DNA from: Primula veris
Lineage: Eukaryota; Streptophyta; Magnoliopsida; Ericales; Primulaceae
Direction: 5' to 3'
DNA length: 64,000 bases
NCBI GenBank assembly: GCA_963682055.1
Contig: OY821745.1
Location: 30,997,342-31,061,341 of the forward strand
The notes beneath the pieces were generated by a model. The model worked only from the letters and a program-made list of their open reading frames with translations, made no database searches and was not told the DNA's origin. Below, piece by piece: positions 12,081 to 54,834 of the stretch (positions are counted from its first letter, which is position 1; the number at the start of each line of letters is the position of its first letter). Both the position numbers and the translations under genes were made by a program.

Positions 12081-12649
12081 TGATAAAGCCATAACTTTGG
12101 TCGGTCGCGTTAGGCTTTTCAATAATGATATAATGATAAATCAACCGTGAATAAATGATACTTCCTGATCTTTATTATTGCTCGGATTATTGTTCTTGTT
12201 CGGACTATTACATTTGCTCAGATTAGTATTTCGGTTCTACAATTATGCTCGATATAACTATTTGATCTCTCGTCTTGATCTTTCTCCTCTCTTATTCGGT
12301 GCTCGGCTGTCTTTTCTCGGTTTATTTCTCGAAGTGATATGCTTTGGTTAGTTTCTCTCTTTTCTTAACTTCTCTCTATAATTTTTGGATAGATTTTCCG
12401 GTCCTTTTCTAGGAGGGGTAGCTGGCTATTTATAGGCAACTGCGCCTTCTAGGATATTGACAAATGTCTTCATCCCAGGGGTTTTTCAGACAAGGGTCCC
12501 CCTTTGATTGGGCTTGGGCTTTTGGGTAGTAGCACCTCAATTCCTATAAAAAGTATGAGATGACCCATTTAAGCGTTGGATACCCAGTTATAAAGTGGGC
12601 TGATTATGACCCGAATAAGATATTCGGGTCTAATTTTTATGTTCTATCA
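12081..12649 (-). repeat. LTR (3' LTR of the minus-strand gypsy element)
   Basis: Matches 28754-29322 at all positions I compared except one C/T in the ATTTTCYGGTCC segment. The + strand edges read TGATAAAGCC...TTCTATCA. On the element's sense strand a TATA box (CTATAAATAG) lies at about 12427-12436. The plus strand also has TATAAAAAG near 12544, which could drive transcription rightwards into the antisense ORFs; that is inference. Confidence 0.95.
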
Positions 12650-12832
12650 AGTGCTCCCTGACTTCCTCGGCGTGGTTTCCATGTCGGGGGAGTCATGTTC
12701 GGTTTGTCGAGAACGTTACTTCGGTCTTGTTTTTCCCAATGCTTCATCGAGAAACGCAATAGACTCGTGACGGTTCCCAGGGGGGCACATTTAATGTTTC
12801 ACATCCTAATATCTTTCTTCGAGAAAAACTCC

Positions 12833-13298
12833 TATAAAGGGGTGTGCTCCCTCCATAATTAGGCATTTTACTACTAATTTGCCCGTGACATAATGGCTTC
12901 TTCTGGTTCTACTGGTGAGAGCTCCTTTAATTATATTTCATATTTAGAAACGGAAATCAAGAAATCTCGCACCGCGAATAAGAAACTCGTGGCCAAGGTT
13001 TCAAACTACAAGAAAAGGTTGTCTGCCATGGATTCTGATCATCATGTGACGATGGCCGATCGGGATTGGGCCTATGAGCATATAAAGAAGCTCGAGGCTA
13101 ATCTGGCTAAGCAGAAGGCAGCAAAAAGGGCCTATAAGCTTGCCTTCAAGGAGTTGCATGCTCGGTCCAAACCGAGTTCGGATGACGATGAAGAAGGCTC
13201 TTCCTCGAAATAATTAGTCTTTTGTAATTTCTGTCGTAATTTCTCTTGAATGGGGAGTCTTCTCCTCAGTTGTAATCGAAGTTTTTGGAATTAATAAA
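12833..13298 (+). CDS. Antisense mini-gene A: 106-aa coiled-coil protein
   Basis: The ORF (ATG 12893 to stop 13213) encodes MASSGSTGESSFNYISYLE... with a long charged helix and an acidic-serine tail (SSDDDEEGSSSK). A TATA box (TATAAAGG, 12833) is 60 bases upstream and AATAAA (13293-13298) 80 bases downstream, so this looks like a self-contained transcription unit. It lies on the strand opposite to the retrotransposon genes, directly inside the left LTR. The C-terminal KRAYKLAFKELHARSK is shared with mini-gene B. No function is recognised; a coiled-coil oligomer is inferred. Confidence 0.65.
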
Positions 13299-13460
13299 AT
13301 ATTTTCCTTTCCTTGTTCTTGTCTGTTTATCTTCTTGATGTCTTTTTGGATGACTTTAATTGGATTTGGGAACTGTGGTTAATTCGCCTTTAATGCTCTT
13401 GGGAAGTTCAAGAGGTTGTATTTATTCGAGATGACCTTTGACCTACTCCTTGTTTCTTCT

Positions 13461-13923
13461 TATAAAAGGGGACTGTCCCAGTATTTTTTATGCAGTTCAT
13501 TCTTTATTAGCGAACAAATGGCTTCTCCTCTCGAAAAGTATGGTGACAACCTTCCTGAATACGTTGCCCGTCTGGAAGAGGAAGTTCAGAAGGTGCGTTA
13601 TCTCGAGAAGAGGGTTGCCCGGCTGTCGGTGGAAGCTCGTCGGGCCGCCGAACTAGACGAGCGATTGGATGCCCTAGAGAAGGAGCACCAGAGGTCTTTG
13701 CTCGACAGTATTCGTGCTCGTGCCCGGATCAAAGAGCTCGAGGCCTCCAGAGATAGGCAGCTTGCTTCCAAGAGGGCTTACAAATTGGCCCTTAAGGAAG
13801 TGTATGCTCGGTCGAAAAGGAAACCGAATGACGAAGCGGGCCCTTCTATGAAATGATTTTATTGTATTCATTGTATTTCCTCTTTGTGCTTCTTCTGTAA
13901 CGAAGTATCAACCAATCAATAAA
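13461..13923 (+). CDS. Antisense mini-gene B: 112-aa coiled-coil protein, paralogue of A
   Basis: The ORF runs from ATG 13518 (MASPLEKYGDNLPEYVARLE) to stop 13856. TATAAAAG at 13461 is 57 bases upstream and AATAAA is at 13918-13923. I prefer the 13518 start because the longer frame begins upstream of the TATA box. Heptad-rich helices (LEEEVQKVRYLEKRVARL) fill the protein. The tail KRAYKLALKEVYARSK matches gene A, showing local duplication. Function unknown. Confidence 0.65.
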
Positions 13924-14398
13924 GATTTCTTTTTCTTGTTTATACCTGAATTACTTTCCCAATGCAATTTATTTTGACTGCGCACGCTTGTGGCCTCATT
14001 AATGCTTTTCTTGGGCCTGGCGTTTGATCTTATCCATTGGACCTTCTTATTCTTTATATCTAGGGATTAATAGGATTTCTTGAGCCTTGTACATATAAAA
14101 TCCTATTCACCAGAGTTTTCTTGAGCCTTGCGCAAAAGATCTGGGATATTTATTTGAACCGCTGCTCTTCCCAAAAACGACGCGTGTTTCAATGCCATTA
14201 TTACTTACTCCCTTTAAATATTGGTAAGAATCCAAACGTTTCTTGAACAGGAGTGGCTTTTAATTACTCACGCTCTTTAGAGTCTTTTGGGAATCCAAAC
14301 GTTTTTCTTGAACAGTCACCTCTTTTGAGTGCCATCGCTTCTGAATACCCATTGGCGAATGGTTGCGACTCTCAATCCCAGCCCTCATCTAATTGATC

Positions 14399-14784
14399 TA
14401 TAAATACCTGCTTACAGCATGGTTACATCCACACTTCTCATCATATTATTTTCCCCCATATATAGACCCTCATCTTATAATTTCCCTAAGATGTCTGGTC
14501 CTTTCACCCAATCAGCATTAGCTTTGCAAGTGGAGGCCTTTAAAGCCTCCTATAACCATGTACAAAGGCTGTTGAGGGATGCCGAGGAGGAATTGAAGGT
14601 GATGCGTTATCACCATACCGAGATGGTTCGGGAATTAACTTGGCTAAGATCCGAACTGGCTTACTGCCGACGTGCTCGTCAGGCTCTAGTCGAAGAGAAT
14701 GAGATGCTAAGGGGGAACCCGACACTGAGGGACAGGGATGTCTCTGCCGGGCCCTCTCATCGATACCGATCGACTTTCCCCTAA
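14399..14784 (+). CDS. Antisense mini-gene C: 97-aa coiled-coil protein
   Basis: TATAAATA at 14399 precedes ATG 14491 (MSGPFTQSALALQVEAF); the stop is at 14784. An in-frame ATG at 14419 lies only 20 bases from the TATA box, so the later start is preferred. The protein is one long amphipathic helix (LLRDAEEELKVMRYHHTEMV) with a basic end. Length and start pattern (MSG) resemble mini-gene D. No AATAAA follows; instead a 500 bp pyrimidine-rich tract begins. Confidence 0.6.
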
Positions 14785-15300
14785 CCTTCCCCCTTCTTTT
14801 TTTCTTTTTATCTACTCTTTCCCCATCTTTTCCCATCTCTTCCTTTTTTTTTTTTTTTTTTTTTATTTCTCCGTTTCCATCATTTCTTCCTCTTCCTCTT
14901 TTGTGTTTTTTTTTTATACTCTGTTTTCTCGTACTTTTTATTCTTTTCTTTTTCCGTTTCTTTTTTGTTTCATTGACTTCCTTTTTAGTTGTCGGTCTCC
15001 TTCGTCTCTTTATCTTCTTCTCATCTGTTTTTCTTCTGTGCCTCCTCTTTCTTTTTCTTCATCTTCTCTCCCATCACTCTTTTTCTTTTCTTTTTTATGC
15101 ACCACTACGATGTAACAATCAGCCCTGTGATCCAAAGGGTTTTGTGTTACATTTAGGGTTGGTCATTTTTCTTTTTGACTCTTCTTTCTTATCCCTTCCT
15201 TCTTTTCTTGCACTCTTCTTCTTTTCCTCTTCTTGCTTTTCCTTTCTCTTTCTTCTTACTTTTTCTTTTTGGCGTCTCCTGCTCACTTGGTCAGCTGATA
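14785..15300. repeat. Pyrimidine-rich tract
   Basis: About 500 bases almost entirely of T and C on the plus strand, purine-rich on the element's own sense strand. ORFs across it (Phe/Ser/Leu-rich) are low complexity and rejected as genes. Confidence 0.8.
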
Positions 15301-15337
15301 TAGTTGATCCTTTGCCTGATCTTCTGTACTAGCTCTT

Positions 15338-15480
15338 CTCGGATGTAATAGGTTTTATCTCGGATGTAATAGGATCTCTTTTCGGATGTAATAGGTTTTA
15401 TCTCGGATGTAATAGGATCTCTTTTCGGATGTAATAGGTTTTTATCTCGGATGTAATAGACCTTGATGTAACAGACCTCG
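15338..15480. repeat. Minisatellite built on CGGATGTAATAGG
   Basis: TCTCGGATGTAATAGG and TTTCGGATGTAATAGG alternate about six times, then decay into GATGTAATAGACC and GATGTAACAGACC. The array lies between mini-genes C and D. Confidence 0.8.
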
Positions 15481-15685
15481 ATGTAATATTGTCTATTGAT
15501 GTAATGAACAATGATGTATTCCATCTTCATTAATGAAAAGTATTTTTGCCCTTTTCTTTTTGCATTTCTTTTTATATTGTACCTGTGGTTTGTTGTTTGT
15601 CTGGAATCTAGATCTTTGAATATCTCGTCTTTATTTCTTCTGCACTGTAGTCTCAGATGTCAGTAGATGTCCCCATCACTGTCAA

Positions 15686-15785
15686 ACATATGTGCATGCT
15701 CCCTAGTAGGTCAGGAAATGTGCATGCTCCCTAGTAGGTCAGGAAATGTGCATGCCCCCCCCCCCCCCAGCATGTCAGGAAATAT
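15686..15785. repeat. 31-bp tandem repeat with a C homopolymer
   Basis: ATGTGCATGC followed by CCCTAGTAGGTCAGGAA is repeated about three times. The last copy has a run of about 14 C in place of the CCCTAGTAGG part. Confidence 0.75.
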
Positions 15786-15828
15786 GCAATTTCCCAAGCA
15801 AGGTCATAAAATATCATACTCTCCGTTC

Positions 15829-16411
15829 TATAAGTACTAATCTTTTCTTTGGTAGTTTATCATCTCTTTTTTCTTTTTGCTTCTCTCTTCCTTAGCCCTT
15901 TATTTTCTTCCGTACTAAACAATTTCCCAGAATGTCTGGACTTGTGGTGAGATATCATGCTCAGATGAAGGGCTTGGACTCTGAGGTATCTCGGGTCCGC
16001 CGTCGGATGGCAAGGCTTGAGAAAGAGTATGGCGTTTTGGCCTTGAGCTTGTTCGGCTCTTATCCCGAAGAGACGGTGAAGTGGACCGAGATCTCGGCAC
16101 TGAGTCGCCAGCTCGATCACTTGTTGCTGCAGAGAAACCATCTGGCCAACTCCTGGTATGATGCCGAGGAAATTTGGGACCATTCTCAAGATGAGTTTGA
16201 CAACTCTCCTCAAGGCCTAGCTAGCATAATGGTAAAGAATGCTCGGCTCGTGGAGCGCGTCAGGGTTCTTACTACGGAAAACAACAGGCTCTCCTCAGAG
16301 AATGACGATTTGGTCGCCATGAACGATTCCTACCAAGCTCGGTTGAATTGTTCTGCTCGTTTTGCTTTCTCTCGGTCTGGCAGTTCGGTTTTTCCACCCA
16401 TTGATCCTTAG
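15829..16411 (+). CDS. Antisense mini-gene D: 159-aa coiled-coil protein
   Basis: A TATA-like TATAAGTA at 15829 precedes ATG 15932 (MSGLVVRYHAQMKGLDSE); the stop is at 16411. Two helical segments (SEVSRVRRRMARLEKEYG and VERVRVLTTENNRLSSEND) suggest coiled coils, with an aromatic stretch between them (NSWYDAEEIWDHSQDEFD). Function unknown. Base composition and codon choice resemble the neighbouring antisense ORFs, not the minus-strand pol. Confidence 0.6.
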
Positions 16412-16557
16412 ATTGGGCTGGTTTTCTTTTGTATTTCCCCTTTTGTCATTTGTGTTTTATCTTCTGTACTTGACGAATCAGTTGTATCTTTTCGTATTAT
16501 CTCGTGCCTGTCTTATGAACCATTGTAACGCTTCGTATTTTGTGCCTTTTGATTCTC

Positions 16558-17058
16558 TATAAATGCTCCCTATTGCCTGTATCTCATTATCAATTTCTAC
16601 CTCTCTCTTGTTTTATAATTTGCTTTTGCGTGAGATGGCTCCCATCACTAGGTCTGCCTCTAAAAAGAAAGCCCTTATAGAAGAGGAGCCTACCTTTTTG
16701 CTACCTCGTCCCCCTGGCTTTGGGGAGGAGGATTTGACTCCCCTTCAACTAAAAGAAATTGAGATGTCATGGCTGAAACATGATCTCATGTGTGCTCGGA
16801 CGGAAGCGAAGAGGTTTAAACAATATTGGGACGAGGAGGGCACTGCTCGTTTCAAGGCCGAGCAAAAATGCGAGTCTCAGTCTTACGCCTTGAAACAGGC
16901 TGAGATGGCGATTTCTCGTTTGGTTAGGGAGAAGGAGCGTCTGGAGGAACTTTTGGCGAAGAGGGATGTTGCTATGGGGGATAGTTCGAAAAAGTAGGAT
17001 GGGTGTATTTTCTTTTTCTGTTGTATTGTTTGTGTTTCCCCCTTTGTGGATGAATAAA
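16558..17058 (+). CDS. Antisense mini-gene E: 120-aa coiled-coil protein
   Basis: TATAAATG at 16558 precedes ATG 16635 (MAPITRSASKKKALIEEE); the stop is at 16997 and AATAAA at 17053-17058. The N-terminus is basic, followed by a proline stretch (LLPRPPGFGEEDLTP) and a C-terminal helix (REKERLEELLAKRD). The start MAPITRSASKKK could be a nuclear targeting patch (inference). It completes a run of five spaced units with the same design. Confidence 0.6.
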
Positions 17059-17697
17059 ACTTGTCTTGCATTTGATTCTGTCCTATTTTATTTCCTGTTT
17101 GCTTCTCTTTTATGTTTCTGAGCATACACCGAACAATATGCCCGGTTATCCCCCCGGAGAGCGTTGTTAGACTTGATGCTCCCTGGCATCAAGCTAGTAA
17201 CGGTCTTCGTCCACCTTGGTCGGTGTGCCCTCTTGGTAAGGGTTGGGTGGGAGTCGAGGAACTTTAATCGGGGGATATTCTTGGTGTGATAGTAGTGGTA
17301 GCGTATGTGAGAAGCTTTTCGTGGTAGGGTCCACTGGCCGTTTATTTAGGTCTAATGATGTGAACTGCCTTGGGTAGTGGGATACGCGCTGACGTGGCGA
17401 AATCTGGAGCGTTTAGATGTTAAAAATAGCAGCGGTTGTTGACTTTTGTATGGTTGGAAAAAGGTAAACCTCTGTTACACGAAAGGACGGTTATTATTTT
17501 ATTCCTTTTGTGACTCCACTCCTTTTTATTGTGCCAAGTAATCCTGTTTATTTTTATCATAGAATTCGCTGAAGAAAATATCGTTCTCTCTCTAAAGCAT
17601 ATTCTTCCCGCCAAAAAGGAAAAGAGTTCGGCCGCTTGATCTAGGGTTTCGTGGTTGTGTTGGAAGACTTGCTGCTGTTCGCGCTTGCTTGCTCATA

Positions 17698-20138
17698 ATG
17701 ATTACTGTAAGTGATTTTTTGTGCTCCCCCCTTCCCTCTTTTAGGAGTTGTATTTGATTTGTCGTTGTGGTCATAGGTGTGTCGTTGGTATATGGTTCAG
17801 GTTATCTATATATGTCTGATGATTCTGATGTAATGTGCGTGGGGGGGGGGGTGGCTCTCGTTCTATTGATGTGGTTCTGGTTTGTGTATTTGGTTAGTAT
17901 ATTGATGGACTTTTGATGATCTTTGTATAGGAAATTTTAACCCAAAGTGTGGCCCAAGTTGGCAAATTCGTGGAGAAGGATTTTAAAGAACTCGCCGGAA
18001 TACCTGACAACATACATATCCGGCTTCCTATTTCTGACGAGGAGGTGCTGGGATTTGTACCTGCCGGCGAGGTGGCCGTGCGTTCTTCGGCATTCTTCAC
18101 TGGGGGTCTTCGACTGCCCTTTACAAACTGGGTGGCTTCGTTCTTTGAGGCCGTCCAAATTGCTCCGGCCCAACTGGCCCTAAATGGTTACCGTACTCTG
18201 AATGGTATCCAAAGGCTATCGGAGTTGTCCGGAATACCGATTGAACTGAAGGACGTCTTTGGAGTCTATAGTCTGAGCTTTGAACGTCGCAGCTCGTATT
18301 TGAAGACTCTGCGTGCCTTTTGCCGGCTCGTTATCGGTTTGCCGGATACCAATAAAGAGCGTAATCTTGGTATTGTAATTGCTTCCGGTGCATGGGGTTG
18401 TGCGGGACACCAGATTCCTGGACCGGCGACCAATGCTCCCATCATGCCAGACCTCGGCGCCCCCAATGTAGAGGCTCTGTTAGCTCTTTGGAAATGGTGG
18501 GGGCCTGGACCTACGCCGGATCCTGCGAGTCGTACGGCTCCCATGTTGCTCGGTTACCCTATGGGGTCGATGACCAGGGGAAATCCTGCACCCGAGATCC
18601 CCAAAGAGCCCGAGGAGGAATTCTTAAAGGTGGTCCAGGCTCGATGTGCTACTCGGCTTGGGAAAAAAGCCGTTCGTTCTAAGCGTCGTGCAGCTGACCC
18701 TGTCGTTGAAACAACGAAGAGGGCTAGGGGAACCGATACATCGGTTACCGAGGAAGATGCTAACGTTGGCTCGGGCGAGGGGGTGTGTGCCGCTGCTCAA
18801 GGGGATACCGCCGAGGATGCCTCTGCTCCGGGCGAGGTATGTGTATATGTATTATGATTTTCTTGTCTTTTGGTTGTTTGTCATTTGGTTCGCTAGTGCT
18901 TTGCTTTATTAGTCATCTTGTTTCAGCTACTGACTTCTCCATTGGTTACCCTCGCTCTTGCCCGGTCTATGGGTATTATTGTGTTTCAGGGGTCGGTCGA
19001 CGATGTATTCGGATATATGAACCTCTTGACGAACATGAGAGAGGGTACGATGACTTTGCCGGTCATCTCGCCTATCCCCACCGAGGGTCCGATAGATTTG
19101 TCCGTGTGCTCGCCCCTCCGTAATGAGGAAGAGATCGAGCATAGGGCCCCTGAGATCGAGCAGTTGGAGGAGGACGTGGGGGTGGAGATGGAAGGCAGCG
19201 AAGAGAATGCCGGGGATGTTGTGACGGGTGTCGAGGATGAGGCTCTCGACGGATCCGAGAAAGGGTTGGTTGACGGGGTTGCAATGACCCGGTACATTGA
19301 CCGATGTAGGGGTGAACTGCTGGATCAACCGAGAACACTGAAGATGGGGTATACGGCTCTGAAACCCCTTGTGTTCAAGAATGCAGAAAAACTATCTGCC
19401 CAACCTACAATGTCAGTTATAGAGCAGGCCCACGCGGATGCGCTGAGGGTACGTGGGGCTCGTATTGCACTATATAGGTTTGGTACTTGTATTTTATTTG
19501 GAAACTAATGTGTTAAAGTGCAGATTGCTGTGAGTGCCGTGGCGCTACGGGATCAGCTGGGAGCTCTAGAGGGTGAGAAAGAGAAGCTGGTGACCGAGAA
19601 GGATAATCTGGTGGCCGAGAAGGAGAAATTGGTCGCCGAGAAGAAAACCCTGGGCGAGAATTATGACAAACTGTCGGTGGACTTCCTGCACCTGACCGAG
19701 GATGTCGAGAAATTGAGGGTGGAAAAAGAGAGCATGGCCGCTAAGTACGGCGAATTAGAGGAGGAGAACTTGCTCCTGGCTGAGGACGTGGAAGCCGAAA
19801 AGGCTAAGGTGTCTGCCCTGAAAACGGCACAGGCGGAGGAGCGGAAAAAGTTAGCGATGATGGCCAACTTTTCTGTATACTGCGCTCATGTGCGGGCGCT
19901 CAATTTCGCGAATGTTCCTCTGTCGGATAGGGCGTGGTCGGAGTTGGTGTATCCGTGTCCGCATGGTGCACCGCCGAAACCCTTGGACTGGGCGAATCTT
20001 CGTGAAGAAGAGCTTCCTCGGCTACCGGGGCAGACAATTTCGACAGCGCTGCGTCCCCACTCTATGTCGGCCACGTCCACTCCTCGACCGGATGCTACTG
20101 TTGTGCCCCCACCAGTATCTTCTCAGGTGGAACCTTGA
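17698..20138 (+). CDS. Antisense spliced gene resembling Transposase_28 ('putative gypsy type transposon')
   Basis: Proposed exons 17698-17706 (only Met-Ile-Thr), 17931-18836, 18927-19448 and 19524-20138, joined in frame to about 683 residues. Donors GTAAGT, GTATGT and GTACGT and acceptors TATAG, TTCAG and TGCAG fit consensus. A later acceptor at 18990 is an in-frame alternative for exon 3. The N-terminal third has SAFFTGGLRLPFTNWVAS, then APAQLALNGYRTLNGIQ, then SSYLKTLRAFCRLVIG, the pattern of the plant domain annotated as putative gypsy-type transposon. An acidic middle and a Glu/Lys coiled coil follow (EKDNLVAEKEKLVAEKK). Related antisense extra ORFs are known from Tat-lineage elements, with unknown function. 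Confidence 0.7.
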
Positions 20139-20364
20139 CTATCTTTCTAGCAGTATGTATATATTTTTTTTTTTTTTTATTATTTTTTTTTATTTTTTTT
20201 TTTTGGCCTTGTGTATCTAGAAACAGATTCTTTTGGTGAAGTGATAACATAGGTGCTGTGTTTTATTTCTGTTGGGCTTTCTTGGGTTAATTTCTTTTGA
20301 TGGTCGTCATATTTTGAAGGATGTGAAAACAAAATATTGTCAGGTACCAAATAACCCCCTTGCC

Positions 20365-20937
20365 ATGGTGGTCTGGACCTCGCCTAGTCGTAGTGTAGGT
20401 GACATAATAGAAGATTTGGAAAGATCTAAGGCGTCCCTTACCACGAAATTGACTCGTGCTTATCAGGAAATCGAGGGTCTGAATATTCATATTTCCAACT
20501 TGGCGATTCGGTTACGTGATTTGGGAGAGAAATTTAGTAAAAAGACCGCCCATTATACGGCAAATAAGGGTAAAGCAAAGGAACTTCTCAGTGCCCTACG
20601 ACGTTCTCGTGATGAAGCCCGAGGTCGTGTGACGAGCTTGAGCTTGGTCCTTGGGGCTGTTTTCGAGGACGCGGATCTGCTGCTATCCTTTGCCAAAGCC
20701 TATTGGGCCCGAGCTCGCGCCTTAGAGGTGCTGGAGCATATAAAAGGAATGAGTGGTGTGTCCCGGGCAGAGCGCATGGTGGATGCGAAGGCCGGGGTAA
20801 CTGAAACCACTGTTGCCTTGAACCGAATTGAGGCGATCATTCGTGAGCGTTTGGGGACGCAAATTAATTCATTGCGAGATATTCATTTTGCCGATGTAGT
20901 AGAGACTTCGGCGTCAGTTGAGGGGTTGTCGGATTAA
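20365..20937 (+). CDS. Antisense ORF F: 190-aa helical protein
   Basis: The first in-frame ATG is 20365 (MVVWTSPSRSVGDIIEDLE); the stop at 20935-20937 overlaps an AATAAA. The protein is mostly helical (SKASLTTKLTRAYQEIEGL, RRSRDEARGRVTSLSLVLG). No TATA box is obvious. A CAGGTACC lies 24 bases before the ATG, so it may be a terminal exon of the upstream gene instead of a separate gene. Function unknown. Confidence 0.5.
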   Translation: MVVWTSPSRSVGDIIEDLERSKASLTTKLTRAYQEIEGLNIHISNLAIRLRDLGEKFSKKTAHYTANKGKAKELLSALRRSRDEARGRVTSLSLVLGAVFEDADLLLSFAKAYWARARALEVLEHIKGMSGVSRAERMVDAKAGVTETTVALNRIEAIIRERLGTQINSLRDIHFADVVETSASVEGLSD

Positions 20938-21126
20938 TAAAATAGCTTGTTTTGTCGTTTTCTTTGTAGCTTGTATAAAAAATTCTCTCTCTTTTTTTTT
21001 TTGTTGTTGTTGTTTTTTTTTTTGTTTTTTTTTTGTTTTTTTTTTTTTTGTAGCTTCCTTTTTTTTATATTCATCTCTTCTCGTTCGTCTCCCCCCCTCT
21101 TTTTTTTTTTATAGGCACATGCTACT

Positions 21127-21765
21127 ATGTCGCACCAGGCTGGTTCTCCATGCCTAGTTAACCCGGGGTTAGGACCTACTGGTGCTGCCCGGGACGAGGT
21201 CTCAACTGGTGCGGCTAGTGAGGTGCCTGACAGGTGGCCCTACATTGTTTTGATGAGCAAAAATGTCAAATTGACCGACCAATGTGCTCAACTGCGGACC
21301 AAGCTGAAAACCCAGGCGGCCTCTTTTCGAGAATACGTTCGCCGTGCCGAGCATGCTGTTGAGGTTCAGGAGCGTCGTTTGGATCGATATTTGCGTGCAA
21401 AGGGCGAGTACTTCGGCAAATTAAAGTTGCTTGTGACCAAGGCCAACGTGTTGGTGAAGTATTTCCGTTTGTCCCGCGCCAGATACGATGCTTCCGCAGC
21501 TGTGATTGAAGCTCGCCGTGACCTCTCCTTTGACGATGATCGCCGTAAAGCGGCCTCGGATGCTCACGAGTCCGCCAAAGAAGCCGAGTTCAACGCGCGG
21601 CTTCAAACGCTGACTTGTGTGGGGGCTCATACGACCAATTTTGATGCCCTCATTTCTGAGGAGCGTTTTGATGGTGATGAGTCTGATGGGTACACAACGA
21701 CTGATGACGAAGAGATTGAGCTCGGTCAATTACCGTCGTGCTCCTCCTGCAGTAGTTCTTCTTAA
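21127..21765 (+). CDS. Antisense ORF G: 212-aa helical protein with acidic tail
   Basis: The ORF starts at ATG 21127 (MSHQAGSPCLVNPGLG) and ends at 21765. It follows a long T-rich tract ending in TTTTTTATAG, a good 3' splice site at about 21112, so it may be an internal or last exon. Helical core (KLTDQCAQLRTKLKTQAASF), then an acidic, serine-rich tail (GYTTTDDEEIELGQLPS). It is the antisense ORF nearest the 134-bp array and integrase. Function unknown. Confidence 0.5.
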   Translation: MSHQAGSPCLVNPGLGPTGAARDEVSTGAASEVPDRWPYIVLMSKNVKLTDQCAQLRTKLKTQAASFREYVRRAEHAVEVQERRLDRYLRAKGEYFGKLKLLVTKANVLVKYFRLSRARYDASAAVIEARRDLSFDDDRRKAASDAHESAKEAEFNARLQTLTCVGAHTTNFDALISEERFDGDESDGYTTTDDEEIELGQLPSCSSCSSSS

Positions 21766-22046
21766 ATGAATCTCTTTAGTGTCGTTGATCTTCTTGTTGC
21801 CTCCGTAATGCGGGCGAGGACTATATATGTGATTTCTTTATTCCTGTTTTGTACCTTTCCATTGCCGTATTGCTATTTAATTGATTGGATCGATTTTTCC
21901 TTGCCAAATCATTTGTTATTTCGTTATTCCTGTTTTGAAGATGCTTCTTGTTGATATTTTGTTGTTTAGATTGATTCTCCTTCATTGTTTTAGCCAATTT
22001 ATATTGCATCGCCGTCATAAAGTGGACCTGAATAATACCCTGCATT

Positions 22047-22650
22047 GTACCTGCATATAAATTTCATAGTATTCCTAGGCGTTCCTTCGGTAACACGCCA
22101 TGTTGGGAATTTCATAGTATTCCTAGGCACTTCGGCCATGTTGGGAATTTCATAGTATCCCTAGACGTTCCTTCGGTAACACGCCATTTACGGGATTTCA
22201 TAGTATGCCTAGACGTTCCTTTGGTAACACGCCATTTACGGACTTTCATTGTATTCCTAGGCACTTCGGCCATGCTGGGAATTTCATAGTATCCCTAGAC
22301 GTTCCTTCGGTAACACGCCATTTACGGGATTTCATAGTATGCCTAGACGTTCCTTTGGTAACACGCCATTTACGGACTTTCATCGTATTCCTAGGCACTT
22401 CGGCCATGCTGGGAATTTCATAGTATCCCTAGACGTTCCTTCGGTAACACGCTATTTTCGGGATTTCATAGTATGCCTAGACGTTCCTTTGGTAACACGC
22501 CATTTACGGACTTTCATTGTATTCCTAGGCACTTCGGCCATGCTGGGAATTTCATAGTATCCCTAGACGTTCCTTCGGTAACACGCCATTTACGGGATTT
22601 CATAGTATTTCTAGGCACTTCGGCCATGTTGAGAATCTCATGGTATTAGT
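22047..22650. repeat. 134-bp tandem repeat downstream of gypsy integrase
   Basis: Units spaced 134 bases apart (matching points 22205, 22339, 22473) are built from shorter sub-units around CCTAG.CGTTCCTT.GGTAAC and GCACTTCGGCCATG. About four and a half units are present. Tandem arrays in the 3' untranslated part of Tat/Ogre elements are known as seeds of satellite DNA. ORFs across the array translate the repeat and are not genes. Confidence 0.9.
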
Positions 22651-22756
22651 AGATAGCATAATAATATATTTTATTTATTCAAAAGAAGAAAGATAATGCC
22701 ATTAAGCAAGAAGGGTAAGGTAGCACCTGTACTTGTACTTGTATTCGGAGCATTGC

Positions 22757-23701
22757 CTATACGTAGTACTTCTTTAAGTTAGCCACATTCCAAGAATTCT
22801 TTTCCCCTCGGCTGTTGGCGAACAGGACGCTTTTGATTTTGTAAGAGACTGGACTTGTTCGCTTGACGATTTCGTATGGGCCTTCCCAGGTAGGGCTCAG
22901 TTTGCCATGTATTTCGTTGCGGGTATAGACCGTCACTCGTCGCAGCACCAGTTCTCCTACCATGAATTCTTTAGATCCTTTTACTCTCTTGTCATAGGTT
23001 TGCTTTACGCTTTGTTGGTATTTAGCTAAGGTAAGGGCCGCTATCTCTCGTTTCTCGTCTATCATGTCGAGCTCTTCTCTCATTCTTTGTTCATTATTTC
23101 CCTGCTCGACCAACGTTGTTCGGAGCGTAGGTAGCCCGATCTCTGTCGGTATGACGGCCTCAACACCGTATGCTAAGCTAAACGGGGTTTCCTTGGTGCC
23201 CGTCTTGGGTGTAGTTCGGCACGACCATAAAACGTTGAGTAGCCGCTCGGGCCACCTCCCCTTTGCTTGTTCAAGGGTGGTCTTGATGCCGTCTAATATG
23301 GTTCGGTTTGACACTTCGGCTTGCCCGTTCCCTTGTGGGTATGTCGGCGTCGAATAGAATTTTCGGATACCGAGTTCCTCGTACCACAGCTGTAAATTGG
23401 CATCTTTGAACTGGGTTCCGTTGTCGGCGACTATAGCGTACGGTATTCCGAACCTAGTTATGATGTATTCCCAAATGAATTGTTTGACGTTGCTGGCTTT
23501 GATTTCTCGGAGGGGTTTAGCTTCGACCCATTTGGTGAAATAATCAGTCGCAACGATCAGATATTCCACATTCCCAGGTGCTCTTGGGAGTTTACCGACC
23601 AAATCGATTGCCCATTGAGCGAACGGCCATGGTGCTGATACCGGGGTCATCATAGATGAAGGGAGCCGTGGTATCTTGGCGAATCGTTGGCACTTGTCGC
23701 A
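22757..23701 (-). CDS. Gypsy integrase, continuing after the TGA
   Basis: In the same frame as RT, just after TGA 23702-23704, the sequence reads CDKCQRFAKIPRLP, completing the zinc-binding motif. The catalytic core has WAIDLVGKLP (first Asp), VADNGTQF (second Asp) and GNGQAEVSNRT (Glu), so D,D-E is intact. A C-terminal DNA-binding region ends NLKKYYV. It would insert the element's cDNA in the nucleus. In this copy it could only be made by read-through of the TGA. Confidence 0.88.
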   Translation of the reverse strand, partial: CDKCQRFAKIPRLPSSMMTPVSAPWPFAQWAIDLVGKLPRAPGNVEYLIVATDYFTKWVEAKPLREIKASNVKQFIWEYIITRFGIPYAIVADNGTQFKDANLQLWYEELGIRKFYSTPTYPQGNGQAEVSNRTILDGIKTTLEQAKGRWPERLLNVLWSCRTTPKTGTKETPFSLAYGVEAVIPTEIGLPTLRTTLVEQGNNEQRMREELDMIDEKREIAALTLAKYQQSVKQTYDKRVKGSKEFMVGELVLRRVTVYTRNEIHGKLSPTWEGPYEIVKRTSPVSYKIKSVLFANSRGEKNSWNVANLKKYYV

Positions 23702-26065
23702 TCATTGGACGTATGCATCGGCGTCTCGCTTGATATAGGGCCACCAATATCCTTGGGTCACTGCCTTGTTTGCAAGGGATCGCCCTTTGATGTGTGCTCC
23801 GCAAGATCCTTCGTGGATTTCTTCCAAGACCGGCAGTTGTAGCTCGGTCGGGACGCACAGTAGATGTGGTCCCTGGTAACTGGATTTGTATAGTTTATCA
23901 TCCTCGGATAGCCAGAAGCGAGGAGCTTTTCTTGTAATTTTCAGCGCTTTTATCTTGTCGACCGGAAGCGTTCCATTTCGCAGATAATGGGTCATGTCCT
24001 CCATCCATCCTAGTTCGTACTGTATCGATGTCACCCGGTTTACCCTTTTTATTATGCTCGGGGTCGGCAGTAGTTCCACTGTGATCGACCGGGTGTCGGT
24101 CAATGTTAGTGTCGAGGCTAGGGTGGCCAATGCATCGGCATGTGCATTCTCGGTGCGATTGATTCTTACTAACTCGCACTGTTCGAATGTGGCCATCAAG
24201 CTTTGGACTTTTTCTTGGTAGAGGATCATTCTATCGTCTTTCGCTTGGTACTCGCCGATGGTTTGATTGACGATGAGCATGGAGTCTGAGCTTGCAATTA
24301 AGTGGGAGCATCCGAGGGACCGGGCAATAAGCATGCCATTTATCATGGCCTCGTACTCTGCCTCATTGTTGGTAGCTCGGAAGCCCAGTTTTATGCTTTT
24401 CTCGATGATTGCTCCCTCTCTAGACTTTAGGACGATCCCTGCTCCTGATCCGTCCTTGGTGGCTGATCCGTCGACATGTATCTGCCAGTGTGATTGGGGA
24501 GAGAGTGCCAAAGGCTCGTCATAGCCTTCGGTGAATTCTGCGACGAAATCGGCCAGGACTTGTCCCTTTATGGCATGGCGGGGTGCGAACTCGATATGAA
24601 ATTGGGATAGCTCGACCCCCCAGGCGGCAACTCGGCCGCTAATGTCCGTCCGTCGAAGTGACTCTTTAATATGAAACTTTGTATATACCCGGACCTGATG
24701 AGCTATGAAATAGTGTGGCAACTTCCTGGTTGCGACGACCAATGCCAGGCACAGCTTTTCCAAGGGTAGATAACGTGTTTCGGCTTCGACCAGAGTCTTG
24801 CTGACGAAGTAGATCGGAAATTGTTCGCGACCTTCTTCTCTTAGGATGACCGTGCTCACAGCTGTAGCGGAGACTGCTAGGTAGCATGCCAGAATGTCTC
24901 CTCTGTTCGGCCTTACTAGCAGTGGCAATGTCCTCAAGTACTCTTTGAGATTGTTGAACGAAGCTTCACATTCCGGGTCCCAGACGAATTTTCTATCCTT
25001 CTTGAGTGATTCGAAAAATGGCCTTCCCTTATCTGCGGATCGGCTAATGAACCTGCTCAGCGCTGCCATCATTCCCGTGAGCTCTTGTACCTGTTTCTTA
25101 TTCTTGGGCGCTGCCAGGTTTCGTAGAGCCGTTATTTGATCGGGATTAGCCTCTATTCCTCGTCGACTAACCATATGTCCCAAGAATTTCCCTTTGCTGA
25201 TGCCAAATGCACACTTGCTCGCATTGAGCTTCAGTTTGTGCTTGCCCAGCGTTCGGAAAACGTCCCTGATATCTTGAAGGTGGGATGTGGCTCTTTCGCT
25301 TTTGACGACCATGTCGTCTATGTATACCTCCATTGTTTTCCCTATATGATCTCGACATACCCTTGTTATCATCCTTTGGTATGTTGCTCCTGCATTGCGT
25401 AGGCCAAACGGCATTACCGTATAGCAATAATTTCCCAAAGGTGAGATAAACGAAGTCTTTTCTTGATCTTCGCGGGCGAGGGGAATTTGATGGTATCCTG
25501 AGTACGCGTCAAGGAAGGTCATCCGTTCTGCTCCCGCTGTTGCGTCCACCAGTTGATCGATCCTTGGAAGGGGAAAGTGGTCCCTCGGGCAGGCTTTGTT
25601 GAGGTTGGTGAAGTCTATACAGACTCTCTCCTTCCCGTTCTTCTTAGGGACGACGACCGGGTTGGACAACCATTTTGGATAGTAAACCTCCCTTATGGCT
25701 CCAGCCTCCAATAGCTTTTGTACTTCAGCGATTATAGCTGCTCTGTGCTGTACAGAGACTTTTCTGCTCCTCTGTGCTATTGGCTTGTACTCGGCGTTCA
25801 CACTTAGGTGGTGGCATGCTGTATTGGGGTCTAGGCCCGGCATGTCTTTAGGACTCCAGGCGAATTTATCAGTGTTGTTGAGGAGGAATGCTTTCAACTC
25901 CTCGGATTCCTGTTTTGGAAGGTTGTCGCCGAGGAGGAAGTAATGCTCCTCGTCCATATCAGGGATATACACCTTCCTGAGTGTCTCTCCTACTTGTTCT
26001 TCGACAACCCTTTCGGCTTTGGATATTTGGCTGATCAGCTTCTTTGTGCTGGTGGGTTGTTCCAC
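23702..26065 (-). CDS. pol: Gypsy reverse transcriptase with two RNase H modules, start of integrase
   Basis: A 787-codon open stretch on the minus strand. The RT core shows FTNLNKACPRDHFPLPRID, FLDAYSGYHQIPL, MPFGLRNAGATYQRM and the catalytic YIDDM. A degenerate retroviral-type RNase H/connection follows (EAETRYLPLEKLCLALV). Then comes a second RNase H of archaeal type with HVDGSATKDGSGAG, NNEAEYEA, SSDSMLIVNQ and NAHADALA, a hallmark of the Tat lineage. The stretch ends inside the integrase zinc-binding domain (CGAHIKGRSLANKAVTQGYW) at an in-frame TGA (23702-23704). The downstream integrase is in the same frame. Confidence 0.9.
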   Translation of the reverse strand: MEQPTSTKKLISQISKAERVVEEQVGETLRKVYIPDMDEEHYFLLGDNLPKQESEELKAFLLNNTDKFAWSPKDMPGLDPNTACHHLSVNAEYKPIAQRSRKVSVQHRAAIIAEVQKLLEAGAIREVYYPKWLSNPVVVPKKNGKERVCIDFTNLNKACPRDHFPLPRIDQLVDATAGAERMTFLDAYSGYHQIPLAREDQEKTSFISPLGNYCYTVMPFGLRNAGATYQRMITRVCRDHIGKTMEVYIDDMVVKSERATSHLQDIRDVFRTLGKHKLKLNASKCAFGISKGKFLGHMVSRRGIEANPDQITALRNLAAPKNKKQVQELTGMMAALSRFISRSADKGRPFFESLKKDRKFVWDPECEASFNNLKEYLRTLPLLVRPNRGDILACYLAVSATAVSTVILREEGREQFPIYFVSKTLVEAETRYLPLEKLCLALVVATRKLPHYFIAHQVRVYTKFHIKESLRRTDISGRVAAWGVELSQFHIEFAPRHAIKGQVLADFVAEFTEGYDEPLALSPQSHWQIHVDGSATKDGSGAGIVLKSREGAIIEKSIKLGFRATNNEAEYEAMINGMLIARSLGCSHLIASSDSMLIVNQTIGEYQAKDDRMILYQEKVQSLMATFEQCELVRINRTENAHADALATLASTLTLTDTRSITVELLPTPSIIKRVNRVTSIQYELGWMEDMTHYLRNGTLPVDKIKALKITRKAPRFWLSEDDKLYKSSYQGPHLLCVPTELQLPVLEEIHEGSCGAHIKGRSLANKAVTQGYWWPYIKRDADAYVQ

Positions 26066-26640
26066 AGTGCTTCGTTGTTGTTGGAGAGTCGCGGTGATGT
26101 CCTCGCAGCGTCTTGAATCTTCTTGACATCCTCTGGCTGTCTCGATCGCCCCCTATCATTCGGGTATTTGACCTTTTGGTGATAGGTCGAGGGTATGGCC
26201 TTCATGGCATGTAACCATGGTCGGCCCAATATTGCGTTGTGCCCGGAGTGGTCGTCGACCACTAAGAACTCCACGGGAACCGACATGGACCCTGTTGTGA
26301 CACTGAGGACGATCTTACCCAAAGGTTTGGTCGTTTCGGAGATGAATCCGATCAATGTGACATCGGTAGGCTGAAGATCTTGCAGCTTGAGTTCCATCTT
26401 GTCGAAGAGCTCCTTGTACATGATGTCACAAGAGGCTCCTTGGTCGACAAGTACCCTGCTGACTGTGTCTAGGCCGATTTGAACACGGAGGTTAATGGCG
26501 TCTCCGTGGGGGTAAATCACCCCTTCTTCGTCAAGATCCGAGAAAGAAATGGGCGGATGTCGTCGTGGAGTGCATTGTCGTTTAGAGGGCGATGCCTGTG
26601 ATGTCTTGGCTACTTGGCCAAAGTGGGCCAGCTGCCGCTG
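26035..26640 (-). pseudogene. Gypsy protease region
   Basis: The minus-strand frame continues from gag. The open stretch carries VLVDQGASCDIMY, a retropepsin-type active site (D-x-G-[AS]), followed by ILGRPWLHAM, the ILG motif of aspartic proteases. It would cut the gag-pol polyprotein. The conserved flap-side sequence ends near KYPNDRG (about 26150). There the protein similarity moves into the RT frame across a G/C homopolymer, which suggests a one-base slip rather than a natural gene boundary. Confidence 0.8.
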
Positions 26641-27003
26641 TCATGATCGTTCCCCGCCTGGGCCCTTGGGTCGTGACATATGAACGACGTTGATCGTTTT
26701 GCCTTGCCGGTTGTCAGATCCCTCGATGGCCAGTTGCTTGCCTTTATTCCCAGCTCCTTTGATGAACTTGGCTAGGTATCCTGCATCGCCCCACTGGTTC
26801 ATTCTCCATCGTAGGTTACGGCAATGCTCAGTGAGATGGCCGTGATCCTCGTGATATGCGCAGAAGAGCTTGGAATCTCTCTGACTGGGGGGCGAGATGA
26901 TCGGTTGTGGTCGGGAATACCAACTTTCCCTGCATATATCCTTGAGGATATCTTCAGCAGACAGGTTGAAAGTGTATCGCAGCTCGACCGGTCCGAAAGT
27001 GTT

Positions 27004-28674
27004 TCAGTGTTCCCTCTCTTGGGGCCGAACCTGTTGAAATGGCTTGGGTGGCATCGGGTAGGCGAGCTGGAGCGGTTTATGTTCGTTGGTCGGTGGTGGG
27101 TATGCGATCTGGAGCGGTTTGGGCTCTCGTGCTCGTGGTCGCTCTCCCCTGCTATGGACCTCGGGCTCTTTGCCCTTTCTGGTCGGTTGGAATGCTTCTC
27201 CCTGGTTATTCCTAACTCTTTTGCGACCCACCTGTGCCTCGCGGACCGACTCTCTTCTCGGTAGAGTCCGGTTGAGGAAACGCAATTCGTCGTTTTTATC
27301 GGTGAGGTGGGTACAATAGGCTAGCAGGGAATCAGTGGTTGGAAAGTTTTTGCCTATGAACTTCCTTCTCGCCCAATAGCCATTAGGGATGGAATTGATA
27401 AAGTTTTGGATGGCTATATTATTGGCATATCGTGGAATCTGGTTTGCTACGTCGATAAAACGTATGCAGTAATCGTTGAGCCTTTCATTTGGCATCATCG
27501 TCATTTTAAGAAGGGTTTCGATGCTAACCTTCTTTTTCCGATGAGCAGCGTATCGGGTGGAGTACGCTCTTAGCAGTTCTGCCCAGTTTCTAATGGAGCC
27601 CCGTGGTAAGTTATGATACCATGACGAAGCCTCTTGACCCAAGCTGTTTTTGAAAAATTTGCACATCAGTGCATGGTCATCACTCCACAGTTCCATCTTC
27701 GTCTTGTAGTGCCTCAGATGGTCGATAGGGCAACTCTTCCCGTCATAGAGCCTGAATTCGGGGATGACGAATCCCATAGGATTGCGGTACCGCGTGATCT
27801 GTTCAGCACACGGGGTTTCTTGGCATACATTCCAAGCCTGTTGGAACACGTCATCCGTGACTTGGTAGGGGGGAGGGTATCCTCCATGATGTGGTGGTGG
27901 GCCATATCCCTCCCCGATCCTGTATTCGGGATATCTATCGTCCTTCGTGTTTGTGTGGACACGTTCCATATGAGTGTTCGGATGGACGATAGTTATTGGG
28001 ACATTGCCCCCTTGGTGGGGGACTCTTGTATCGGGTCGCCGACCCGCTGCCTCCAGGGCGGCCCTATAGGCAGAATCTTCCACTTCATGGCGTGGGTCTT
28101 TGTCGGGTTGGATAACTGGCAATACGATGCCGGCCGCTGTCATGGCCGTCATGCATGCCGCCAGCTGAGCTTGTAGCTGGGTGTAGTTCCTTTCATCGGC
28201 TAATGGAACGACATGTTGTACCTCCACTGTGGGTGGTGTAATCATCCTCGGAGAATTAGTCGGCAGTCGGGGCGACTGTCCGAGTACATGATCCTCGGGC
28301 ATACCAAACTGACGGGCCTCGTCCGTTTGTAAACGAGCACCGGAGTTGACCGAGGCCGTAGGCAATGGGACTCTTGAGCTCGGCCCTGCTTGGGACCCGG
28401 TTAAGCGTCTTCGTGCACGCCTTAATACGGGCACGTCTTGTTCGTCCTCCGAGGACGAAAGGTGTTCGTCGACAATCCCTTCGATGAAATGTCAGGGTGG
28501 TTCGACCGGTTGTTCTTGGTTGACGTAGGAGGTTGTTGGTTGGTTTCCGGATTGGATTGCTTCATATCTGTCGCGGATAGCGAGTAGATCGTCGAGGTCT
28601 TGTTGGCTAATTTGCGTGTTTTGGTTATTGGTTTCTACTATCTCGGGATGGGTTTCCTCTACATTGGTAACCAT
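27004..28674 (-). pseudogene. gag: Gypsy gag (capsid), interrupted by TGA codons
   Basis: Reading on the minus strand from ATG at 28674, the frame holds MVTNVEETHPEIVE, an in-frame TGA at 28492-28494, then a 476-codon open stretch (28434-27004) with the retrotransposon gag core (ELWSDDHALMCKFF, then SSWYHNLPRGSIRNW). A second TGA at 27004-27006 is followed in the same frame by a zinc-knuckle-like CAYHEDHGHLTEHC (C-x2-H-x4-H-x4-C), typical of Tat-type gags. A third TGA is at 26641-26643. The frame on both sides is otherwise open, so these are point nonsense changes. All are TGA, as expected from CGA-to-TGA decay at methylated CpG. Gag would form the cytoplasmic particle that packages the element's RNA. 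Confidence 0.85.
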
Positions 28675-28731
28675 TGTCGCTCGTCTGGCAGAGTATTGGT
28701 ATTCGAATTCTAAACTAGTTGGGAACTAGAT

Positions 28732-28751
28732 GATTCCCGGAGACGGCGCCA
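28732..28751 (-). promoter_or_regulatory. Primer binding site, tRNA-Asp-like
   Basis: Two bases inside the 5' LTR the minus strand reads TGGCGCCGTCTCCGGG, which fits the complement of a plant tRNA-Asp(GUC) 3' end in about 17 of 20 positions (compared from memory). This fixes the element's orientation and agrees with use of tRNA-Asp by some plant gypsy elements. Confidence 0.8.
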
Positions 28752-28753
28752 TT

Positions 28754-29322
28754 TGATAAAGCCATAACTTTGGTCGGTCGCGTTAGGCTTTTCAATAATG
28801 ATATAATGATAAATCAACCGTGAATAAATGATACTTCCTGATCTTTATTATTGCTCGGATTATTGTTCTTGTTCGGACTATTACATTTGCTCAGATTAGT
28901 ATTTCGGTTCTACAATTATGCTCGATATAACTATTTGATCTCTCGTCTTGATCTTTCTCCTCTCTTATTCGGTGCTCGGCTGTCTTTTCTCGGTTTATTT
29001 CTCGAAGTGATATGCTTTGGTTAGTTTCTCTCTTTTCTTAACTTCTCTCTATAATTTTTGGATAGATTTTCTGGTCCTTTTCTAGGAGGGGTAGCTGGCT
29101 ATTTATAGGCAACTGCGCCTTCTAGGATATTGACAAATGTCTTCATCCCAGGGGTTTTTCAGACAAGGGTCCCCCTTTGATTGGGCTTGGGCTTTTGGGT
29201 AGTAGCACCTCAATTCCTATAAAAAGTATGAGATGACCCATTTAAGCGTTGGATACCCAGTTATAAAGTGGGCTGATTATGACCCGAATAAGATATTCGG
29301 GTCTAATTTTTATGTTCTATCA
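28754..29322 (-). repeat. LTR (5' LTR of the minus-strand gypsy element)
   Basis: A 569 bp copy of the left LTR, followed on the + strand by the CAAAC target duplication. The minus-strand TATA box (near 29099-29108) is placed to start the genomic transcript towards gag. Confidence 0.95.
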
Positions 29323-54718: not shown

Positions 54719-54834
54719 AAAGAGTTTATTTTATTTTGTTTGATAATTCTTTTACAAACCCAAATATCAGTTTTGGTGTTTGTTTATAGAATTTATTGTA
54801 CGCGTATCTCATACGTCTTGTGTTGTCGTTTCAG

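Follow-up and report, generated by a model that had tools for sequence, protein, structure and literature searches.

Antisense genes kept by purifying selection in a Retand-type LTR retrotransposon of Primula veris

The window, by which we mean the whole 64,000-nucleotide stretch of Primula veris DNA that was analysed, contains a young LTR retrotransposon of the Retand type (Tat clade), 17,242 bp long. Between its pol region and 3' LTR it carries, antisense to gag-pol, five small ORFs (A–E) and a spliced gene with a Transposase_28-like (TRP28) domain, and purifying selection maintains the proteins that A–E and the TRP28 exons 2–4, F and G encode. We consider it probable that the region is an accessory-gene array, in which A–E are separate genes, TRP28 forms a further unit and the products have a trans-acting role in the nucleus.

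The element reads on the minus strand and is flanked by a 5-bp target duplication, CAAAC. Its main parts are as follows.

12081..12649, minus strand: 3' LTR, 569 bp, one mismatch against the 5' LTR, with the CAAAC duplication outside
22061..22646, no strand assigned: tandem repeats that separate the antisense array from integrase, motifs in 20/21 siblings
22757..28434, minus strand: gag, protease, RT, two RNase H domains and integrase, in four ORFs
28754..29322, minus strand: 5' LTR, 569 bp, one mismatch against the 3' LTR

The domains follow the gypsy order of protease, RT, RNase H and integrase, together with gag, and the RT ORF holds two RNase H domains (RT_RNaseH at 397–489 and RVT_3 at 531–649). 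A second RNase H domain is a mark of the Tat clade. As in Retand elements, an antisense TRP28 (PF04195) ORF is located between pol and the 3' LTR. On the basis of the LTRs, target duplication, domain order, second RNase H domain and antisense TRP28, we assign the element to the Retand type. The region from pol to the 3' LTR, which holds the antisense genes, spans 10,107 bp and falls outside the published 2.9–6.6 kb, a range that is typical rather than defining. The original prediction of an antisense gene cluster within a Tat-type retrotransposon is borne out subject to the corrections on F, G and E given below, with the LTRs, CAAAC, minus-strand gag-pol and plus-strand A–G all found. An insertion of the element inside an IRE1-like gene was rejected, the recognised IRE1-like exons stopping at 9525.

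The five small ORFs occupy the part of the array closest to the 3' LTR.

12893..13213, plus strand: ORF A, 106 aa, paralog of B; intact in 19/19 siblings, pooled pN/pS 0.39
13518..13856, plus strand: ORF B, 112 aa; intact in 19/19 siblings, pN/pS 0.34 over three relatives
14491..14784, plus strand: ORF C, 97 aa; intact in 17/19 siblings, pN/pS 0.24
15932..16411, plus strand: ORF D, 159 aa, three predicted helices; intact in 19/19 siblings, pN/pS 0.27
16635..16997, plus strand: ORF E, 120 aa; intact in 18/19 siblings, pN/pS 0.20

The 19 siblings are the next-best genome matches and not a random sample, and the four diverged relatives from the same genome (L032–L035, 73–86% DNA identity), which with the window make up the five families counted below, were chosen, also non-randomly, from 150 listed matches by differing frame length. 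Conservation among siblings and dN/dS, two of the checks proposed with the original prediction, did not refute it. A–G are intact in 16–19 of the 18–19 aligned siblings, with no gap columns in A, B, D, E, F or G and two in C (18 siblings for F, which is missing from sibling L028), and pairwise dN/dS against the diverged relatives is well below 1 (0.09–0.43). Among the 150 best-scored genome matches, 149 for A and 144 for D are free of stops. Gene order is the same in the diverged relatives, with B missing from L032. In these relatives the predicted frame has a pooled pN/pS of 0.20–0.47 and 0–1 stop codons, compared with 0.76–1.87 and 17–87 stops in the other two plus frames; this control uses the best stretch per ORF only (for F of L033, one of two pieces) and leaves out the L032 row of B, where the match is the paralog A, a row that the pooled B value of the dN/dS comparison includes. 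Synonymous variants are in excess among siblings (P 4.5e-7 for A–E, P 4.9e-10 for A–G), and taken singly A (P 0.073) and B (P 0.18) are not significant. In an unsupervised 300-bp frame scan across 21 siblings, exon 2 stands out strongly, D and G do so moderately, and A, B, C and F do not; for E the scan favours a minus frame, in which three stops occur.

Sibling intactness, dN/dS, the frame control and the synonymous excess together reject the view that these are chance ORFs, and intact ORFs with dN/dS well below 1 support the original suggestion of accessory proteins. According to the discussion in PMC7264820, siRNAs can be made from antisense transcripts, but the codon-level selection in the predicted frame strongly disfavours an antisense RNA that is itself functional, through dsRNA or silencing control, with the ORFs as by-products. 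Equally improbable to us are recently captured host genes that hitchhike with the element, since the presence of the array under selection in diverged families marks it as old and kept. Capture of host sequence, also raised originally, finds no support: the protein collection returned one match each for exon 2 (T2) and G and two for D, all near-identical or from the same family, and with so few close matches per query this collection leaves room for a plant relative. In a distant TRP28 copy and its upstream 5 kb (L031 and L036) no A–E array was found, the sole array-like match being 27 aa to A (E 0.004), and the TRP28 exon of this copy carries a stop.

A and B arose by duplication and share 40% identity (E 4e-19). 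The coiled-coil design originally ascribed to all seven ORFs holds strongly for A and B, whose heptad power is reached by none of 1000 shuffles, and to a lesser degree for C, D, F and G (15–41 shuffles), and fails for E, whose signal is not significant (427 of 1000). An AF2 model of D consists of three long helices (pLDDT 74.8, pTM 0.42). D also gives a weak zipper match to bZIP_1 (E 0.0023, 18.4 bits, under the cut-off of 27.6), and no bZIP domain passes.

Each of A–E has a TATA box 57–103 nt upstream of its ATG that is kept in all 21 siblings and in every aligned diverged relative, whereas a TATA box stands at that distance for only 9.7% of positions. Downstream of A, B and E we note AATAAA signals.

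12833..12838, plus strand: TATA box of A, 60 nt before the ATG; TATAAA in 21/21 siblings and, counting the window, 5/5 families
13293..13298, plus strand: AATAAA downstream of A; 20/21 siblings
13461..13466, plus strand: TATA box of B, 57 nt before the ATG; 21/21 siblings, 3/3 families with an aligned B start
13918..13923, plus strand: AATAAA downstream of B; 21/21 siblings
14399..14404, plus strand: TATA box of C, 92 nt before the ATG; 21/21 siblings, 5/5 families
15829..15834, plus strand: TATA box of D, TATAAG, 103 nt before the ATG; TATAAG in 20 and TATAAA in 1 of 21 siblings
16558..16563, plus strand: TATA box of E, 77 nt before the ATG; 21/21 siblings, 5/5 families
17053..17058, plus strand: AATAAA downstream of E; 21/21 siblings

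In the four diverged relatives the D box reads TATAAA. A–E fit five small separate genes, each of which would be transcribed singly from its own promoter. Two further ideas did not stand: the AATAAA of F as a conserved terminator was rejected, since it is retained by 3 of the 20 siblings in which the site could be located, and antisense orientation as a means to spare the genomic RNA poly(A) signals is unsupported, sense-strand AATAAA being in excess (20 against 8.2 expected).

Beyond E, the array continues into the TRP28 gene.

17297..17509, plus strand: conserved noncoding stretch ahead of the TRP28 gene, a candidate regulatory region; 86% in L033, 83% in L035
17698..17706, plus strand: predicted TRP28 exon 1, start codon and two codons; downstream donor GTAAGT in 5/5 families
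17931..18836, plus strand: TRP28 exon 2, Transposase_28-like domain and NLS-like basic stretch; pN/pS 0.23
18990..19448, plus strand: TRP28 exon 3, from splice sites; pN/pS 0.47
19524..20138, plus strand: TRP28 exon 4, from splice sites, heptad-like repeats by eye, stop at 20136–20138; pN/pS 0.32
20344..20937, plus strand: F, probable terminal exon, ATG at 20365; intact in 16/18 siblings, pN/pS 0.27
21115..21765, plus strand: G, probably a terminal exon, with a non-conserved ATG at 21127; intact in 19/19 siblings, pN/pS 0.36

Exon 2 matches PF04195 at E 0.013 and 16.2 bits, below the Pfam cut-off of 26.2, and the L033 exon, 74% identical to it, lies above that cut-off at 27.4 bits. An AF2 model of exon 2 shows no fold (mean pLDDT 31.8), and a sequence search of the PDB with it found no match. 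The spliced Transposase_28-like gene of the original prediction is backed by splice sites conserved across siblings and families: the hexamers at five tested sites are identical in 21/21 siblings, and acceptor 3 reads TGCAG in 19 siblings and TGTAG in 2 and is shifted in relative L034. The sibling probe for the exon 1 start was set one base late (TGA, 21/21), and that for donor 1 lacked the first G. An apparent premature TAG in many exon 2 (T2) copies was set aside, since the query extended into intron 2 by six codons, and the two copies checked (L022 and L023) have their TAG in the intron 2 tail. Private stops in exon 2 of L013 and L014 are genuine.

Rather than being separate genes, F and G probably serve as terminal exons of TRP28, in phase 0, because their splice acceptors are conserved (F in 5/5 families and 19/21 siblings, G in 21/21 siblings and 5/5 families) and G is without a conserved start codon, its ATG being missing from L032, L033 and L035. 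We would read TRP28 as one unit of transcription whose introns are in phase 0 and whose last exon varies between exon 4, F and G. Of the seven separate small ORFs first proposed, all are coding, but probably only A–E are genes of their own. That F and G are independent genes, with G starting at a methionine about 44 codons in, appears rather unlikely. The F ATG is kept in 5/5 families, the later G methionine is common to the window and the four relatives, the first 44 codons of G are under weaker constraint (pN/pS 0.52), TATAAA occurs at 20974 between F and G, and L032 and L033 have TATA-like sites upstream of G; yet all five families retain the acceptor-like TGTCAG|G and TAG|GCAC, the aligned G frame extends back to its acceptor, and no TATA-type match occurs within 120 nt before F in any of the five families.

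In the array that we favour, A–E would be transcribed one by one and the TRP28 transcript would end in exon 4, F or G. As the gene is antisense to the genomic RNA, its introns would not be removed from that RNA and would survive retrotransposition. By analogy with known systems, the products are most likely trans-acting nuclear accessory proteins: TRP28, a predicted DNA binder (PMC11963269) with an NLS-like stretch, may form a complex with helical partners that regulates or protects transcription of the element, perhaps by binding its family-specific tandem repeats, as VANC does for VANDAL transposons. The repeat motifs of 22061–22646 were not found in the examined portions of L032–L035, and therefore binding to one fixed motif is not conserved. 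An extended proposal, which we hold to be possible though on balance doubtful, is a 'complex' plant retrotransposon, the antisense counterpart of a complex retrovirus. It would have at least six antisense units, five of them single genes with their own TATA promoter, and a tiny TRP28 start exon that, since all TRP28 exons are in phase 0, could be joined by splicing to exon 4, F or G as interchangeable end modules, and its trans-acting nuclear anti-silencing or transcription complex would co-evolve with the family-specific tandem repeats. In a less likely reading, the products would be structural or assembly factors, small helical scaffolds of the particle, the pre-integration complex or cell-to-cell movement, rather than transcription regulators. 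The proteins are small and mostly basic or helix-rich, D is predicted as a three-helix protein and the whole array is co-conserved, but separate promoters and antisense orientation would uncouple such products from gag-pol, and Grande GENE23, the one studied antisense product, is nuclear (PMC7264820).

Antisense ORFs are a known feature of plant LTR retrotransposons; in this family they clearly correspond to proteins under purifying selection, and are numerous. Short antisense genes may be missed elsewhere, because the main survey, as described in its text (Vicient 2025, PMC11963269), counted ORFs of at least 600 bp and shorter ones only if TRP28. With TATA boxes, splice sites and repeats that are conserved, the hypotheses on transcription and binding can be put to a direct test. 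Should the proteins counter silencing, this would help explain the continued amplification of very large elements in plant genomes.

The design was first thought to go beyond what is described, which holds in part: the antisense TRP28 ORF is a published Retand hallmark (Vicient 2025, PMC11963269), whereas the literature searched yielded no array in which several short genes each have a core promoter of their own and are under purifying selection, and the words intron, purifying and coiled are absent from the text of PMC11963269 covered by a term search. Retand elements, as that text describes them, share with the window element a long region between pol and the 3' LTR, an antisense TRP28 gene and tandem repeats adjoining pol, and some clusters have Smc-like coiled-coil ORFs, a further likeness; the window element differs in its 10.1 kb from pol to the 3' LTR, against 2.9–6.6 kb in the survey, and in five additional short antisense ORFs, each preceded by a TATA box of its own. 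Gene23 of maize Grande (Gomez-Orte 2013, as described in PMC7264820 and PMC11963269) is likewise antisense and between pol and the 3' LTR, with its own promoter, where A–E have conserved TATA boxes, and its product is nuclear; Grande has one antisense gene rather than an array, and the likeness drawn here is one of layout. HTLV-1 HBZ is also an antisense-coded zipper-type protein of an LTR element, although D gives only a weak bZIP_1 match, and HBZ starts in the 3' LTR, whereas the TATA boxes of A–E lie inside the element. VANC proteins, which bind tandem repeats (PMC12844716), are anti-silencing factors, a type marked by binding to the repeats of its own element and by removal of methylation. 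They resemble the products described here as extra proteins encoded by an element with tandem repeats; VANDAL is a DNA transposon, unlike the window element, and here too the likeness drawn is one of layout.

The antisense ORFs lie within a Retand-type (Tat clade) LTR retrotransposon, which is flanked by a 5-bp duplication, CAAAC, and carries two LTRs of 569 bp each that differ at 1 position. On the minus strand, four ORFs of the window copy encode gag, protease, RT, two successive RNase H domains and integrase, the second RNase H being a mark of the Tat clade. Between integrase and the 3' LTR, the plus strand carries the short ORFs A-E, a spliced Transposase_28-like (PF04195) gene, termed TRP28, and the further ORFs F and G.

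Features of the element and its surroundings (window coordinates)
4303-9525, upstream of the element: pieces of an IRE1-like kinase/RNase gene, in which a Ribonuc_2-5A domain is clear and the kinase match weak; the last recognised exon ends at 9525
12081-29322: the element, 17,242 bp
12650-22756: integrase-to-3' LTR stretch, 10,107 bp
17698-17706, plus: TRP28 exon 1, start codon and two codons
17931-18836, plus: TRP28 exon 2
18990-19448, plus: TRP28 exon 3
19524-20138, plus: TRP28 exon 4
22061-22646: 86/134-bp tandem repeats next to integrase
46143-46838, minus: one ORF, similar in appearance to an exon of a BES1/BZR1-type transcription factor
54796-59104, plus: four ORFs suggestive of a Ty1/copia element

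The check originally proposed, for conservation of A-G in sibling copies, finds the ORFs mostly intact, and we regard the coding status of the array as nearly certain. Siblings were sought in the 436.5 Mb genome, which its genes mark as that of a plant; 19 copies (L010-L028) were chosen as next best by TRP28-exon similarity, which skews this sample towards young copies, and two more diverged siblings (L029 and L030) were reached through a search with ORF D. Among the 19, intact ORFs number 19/19 for A, B, D and G, 17/19 for C, 18/19 for E and 16/18 for F, and the sibling alignment is free of gap columns throughout A-G except for 2 in C, compared with 1-58 in six noncoding stretches of the same siblings. 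Relative to the window copy, pooled sibling variants comprise 79 synonymous (48.1 expected), 93 changing and 2 stop in A-E (P 4.5e-7), and 151 synonymous (97.3 expected), 190 changing and 4 stop in A-G (P 4.9e-10), these P values treating variants as independent; singly, the synonymous excess falls below significance for A (P 0.073) and B (P 0.18). When the siblings were scanned for coding frames without supervision, in windows of 300 bp, exon 2 was detected (best P 2.8e-8), and D, G and the final part of exon 3 gave weaker signals, with A, B, C and F undetected; over E, the scan favoured a minus frame that contains 3 stops and has the wobble position in common. Genome-wide, 149/150 scored matches to A and, counted by eye, 144/150 to D lack stops, counts that are biased upward because the 150 scored were the best among 2643 (A) and 1707 (D) first-look candidates. 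In L029 and L030, dS of the TRP28 exon (homolog of window 17949-18857) reaches 0.24 and 0.15 versus the window, compared with 0.01-0.11 for the other ORFs, which suggests recombination between element lineages.

Judged by comparison with four diverged relatives (L032-L035), single old copies chosen for unlike frame lengths from a PF04195 search of the genome (150 scored rows), the antisense array is old. The order and orientation of A, C, D, E, exons 2-4, F and G (the last at least in part) are alike in 4/4, and B is found in three, L032 being without it, at 73-86% DNA identity to the window by stretch and 42-91% amino-acid identity by ORF. Pooled pN/pS in the annotated frame is 0.39 for A, 0.34 for B (three rows), 0.24 for C, 0.27 for D, 0.20 for E, 0.23, 0.47 and 0.32 for exons 2, 3 and 4, 0.27 for F and 0.36 for G. 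The two other plus frames reach 0.76-1.87 and contain 17-87 stops, and the one minus frame with a common wobble position gives 0.24-0.73, but with 9-42 stops. The dN/dS check proposed for these ORFs likewise returned values well under 1, namely 0.23 and 0.30 pooled versus the window for L029 and L030 (1 stop, in F of L029) and 0.09-0.43 pairwise in the diverged relatives (L032 paralog row excluded). Decay is visible in L033 (D and exons 3 and 4 interrupted by stops; F broken), L034 (two stops in exon 4, G shortened, E start lost) and L035 (B codons 1-21 without a match; stops in F and G).

Each of A-E is preceded by a TATA box, located 60, 57, 92, 103 and 77 nt, respectively, from the ATG in the window copy. 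Plus-strand TATAAA occurs 8 times within 12650-22000 (1.7 expected), a count reached by 0/500 shuffles. The boxes are kept in 21/21 siblings, that of D as TATAAG in 20 and TATAAA in 1, and in all aligned families, including the window copy: A 5/5 (60-62 nt), B 3/3 (57-58), C 5/5 (92-93), D 5/5 (86-110) and E 5/5 (74-96, the E start in L034 being positioned by estimate). A site of this kind lies 50-110 nt upstream of just 9.7% of positions in the stretch, which puts the chance of five out of five at ~1e-5. The hexamer AATAAA is present in the 80 nt downstream of A, B and E in 20/21, 21/21 and 21/21 siblings, respectively. We infer that these TATA boxes may act as working promoters, and separate promoters for A-E are likely. 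AATAAA is also over-represented on the minus, or sense (genomic RNA), strand of 12650-22000 (20 versus 8.2 expected).

The TRP28 introns are all phase 0, giving a predicted product of 662 residues. The probed splice-site hexamers are the same in 21/21 siblings except at acceptor 3 (TGCAG in 19, TGTAG in 2), and intron GT and AG are retained in the diverged relatives save acceptor 3, altered in L034. The window exon-2 protein matches PF04195 weakly (E 0.013); the L033 exon, 74% identical to window exon 2, exceeds the curated cut-off (27.4 vs 26.2 bits), and a more distant copy above the cut-off (L031) matches the exon-2 protein with 27% identity over 218 columns (E 1e-13). Of the seven separate ORFs and one spliced gene originally proposed, A-E and the spliced gene stand, whereas F and G are most likely alternative terminal exons, since both start at acceptors retained in 5/5 families and the G frame, which has no ATG at its start region in L032, L033 and L035, extends back to the acceptor (1 stop in L035). 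The conserved CAG|GTGGA at the end of exon 4 can be read as coding up to the stop or as a donor. A noncoding block, 17297-17509, shows 86% identity in L033 and 83% in L035, exceeding much of the coding DNA there.

The coiled-coil design ascribed to A-G finds support in A and B, where heptad power is matched by 0 of 1000 shuffles, and in C, D, F and G (15-41), but not in E (427); exon 4 gives 370. The A and B proteins are paralogous, sharing 40% identity (E 4e-19). AlphaFold2 models D, which has numerous invariant positions between families, as three long helices (pLDDT 74.8, pTM 0.42) and yields no fold for exon 2 (pLDDT 31.8), which contains a basic stretch that we take to be an NLS-like motif.

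Four motifs from the window tandem repeats are present in 20/21 siblings, the exception being L024, and were not found in the L032-L035 stretches compared, which may stop before, or be without, the repeat place. By eye, L032 and L033 have other repeated stretches beyond G, and the C-D spacer (15333-15488) contains short tandem repeats around GATGTAATAG. The available text of a Retand survey describes such repeats as family-specific, places antisense TRP28 ORFs in 97% of Retand clusters, predicts DNA binding by TRP28 and gives 2.9-6.6 kb for the integrase-to-3' LTR stretch, compared with 10,107 bp here (PMC11963269).

We suggest that A-E would be transcribed separately, that the TRP28 gene would use alternative last exons and that the array products could act in trans in the nucleus. 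The proposal that the ORFs encode accessory proteins gains from coding under selection in an old array, with the nuclear trans role drawn by analogy: this step, which we put forward tentatively, is modelled on Grande gene23, the predicted DNA binding of TRP28 and the VANC proteins, described in the portion of the source available as binding tandem repeats in the transposon that encodes them (PMC12844716). The blend of coding array, separate promoters and nuclear regulation is, on balance, modestly favoured. A search of one protein collection returned 1-2 close matches per query, on contigs of 693-2309 bases, and neither an array of five more short genes having their own TATA boxes nor selection tests on such ORFs came up in the literature listings searched, which include few subscription papers. 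As far as the accessible part of the source describes it, Grande carries a single antisense gene, gene23, with its own promoter and a nuclear product (PMC7264820), whereas the window element carries five further short genes with TATA boxes.
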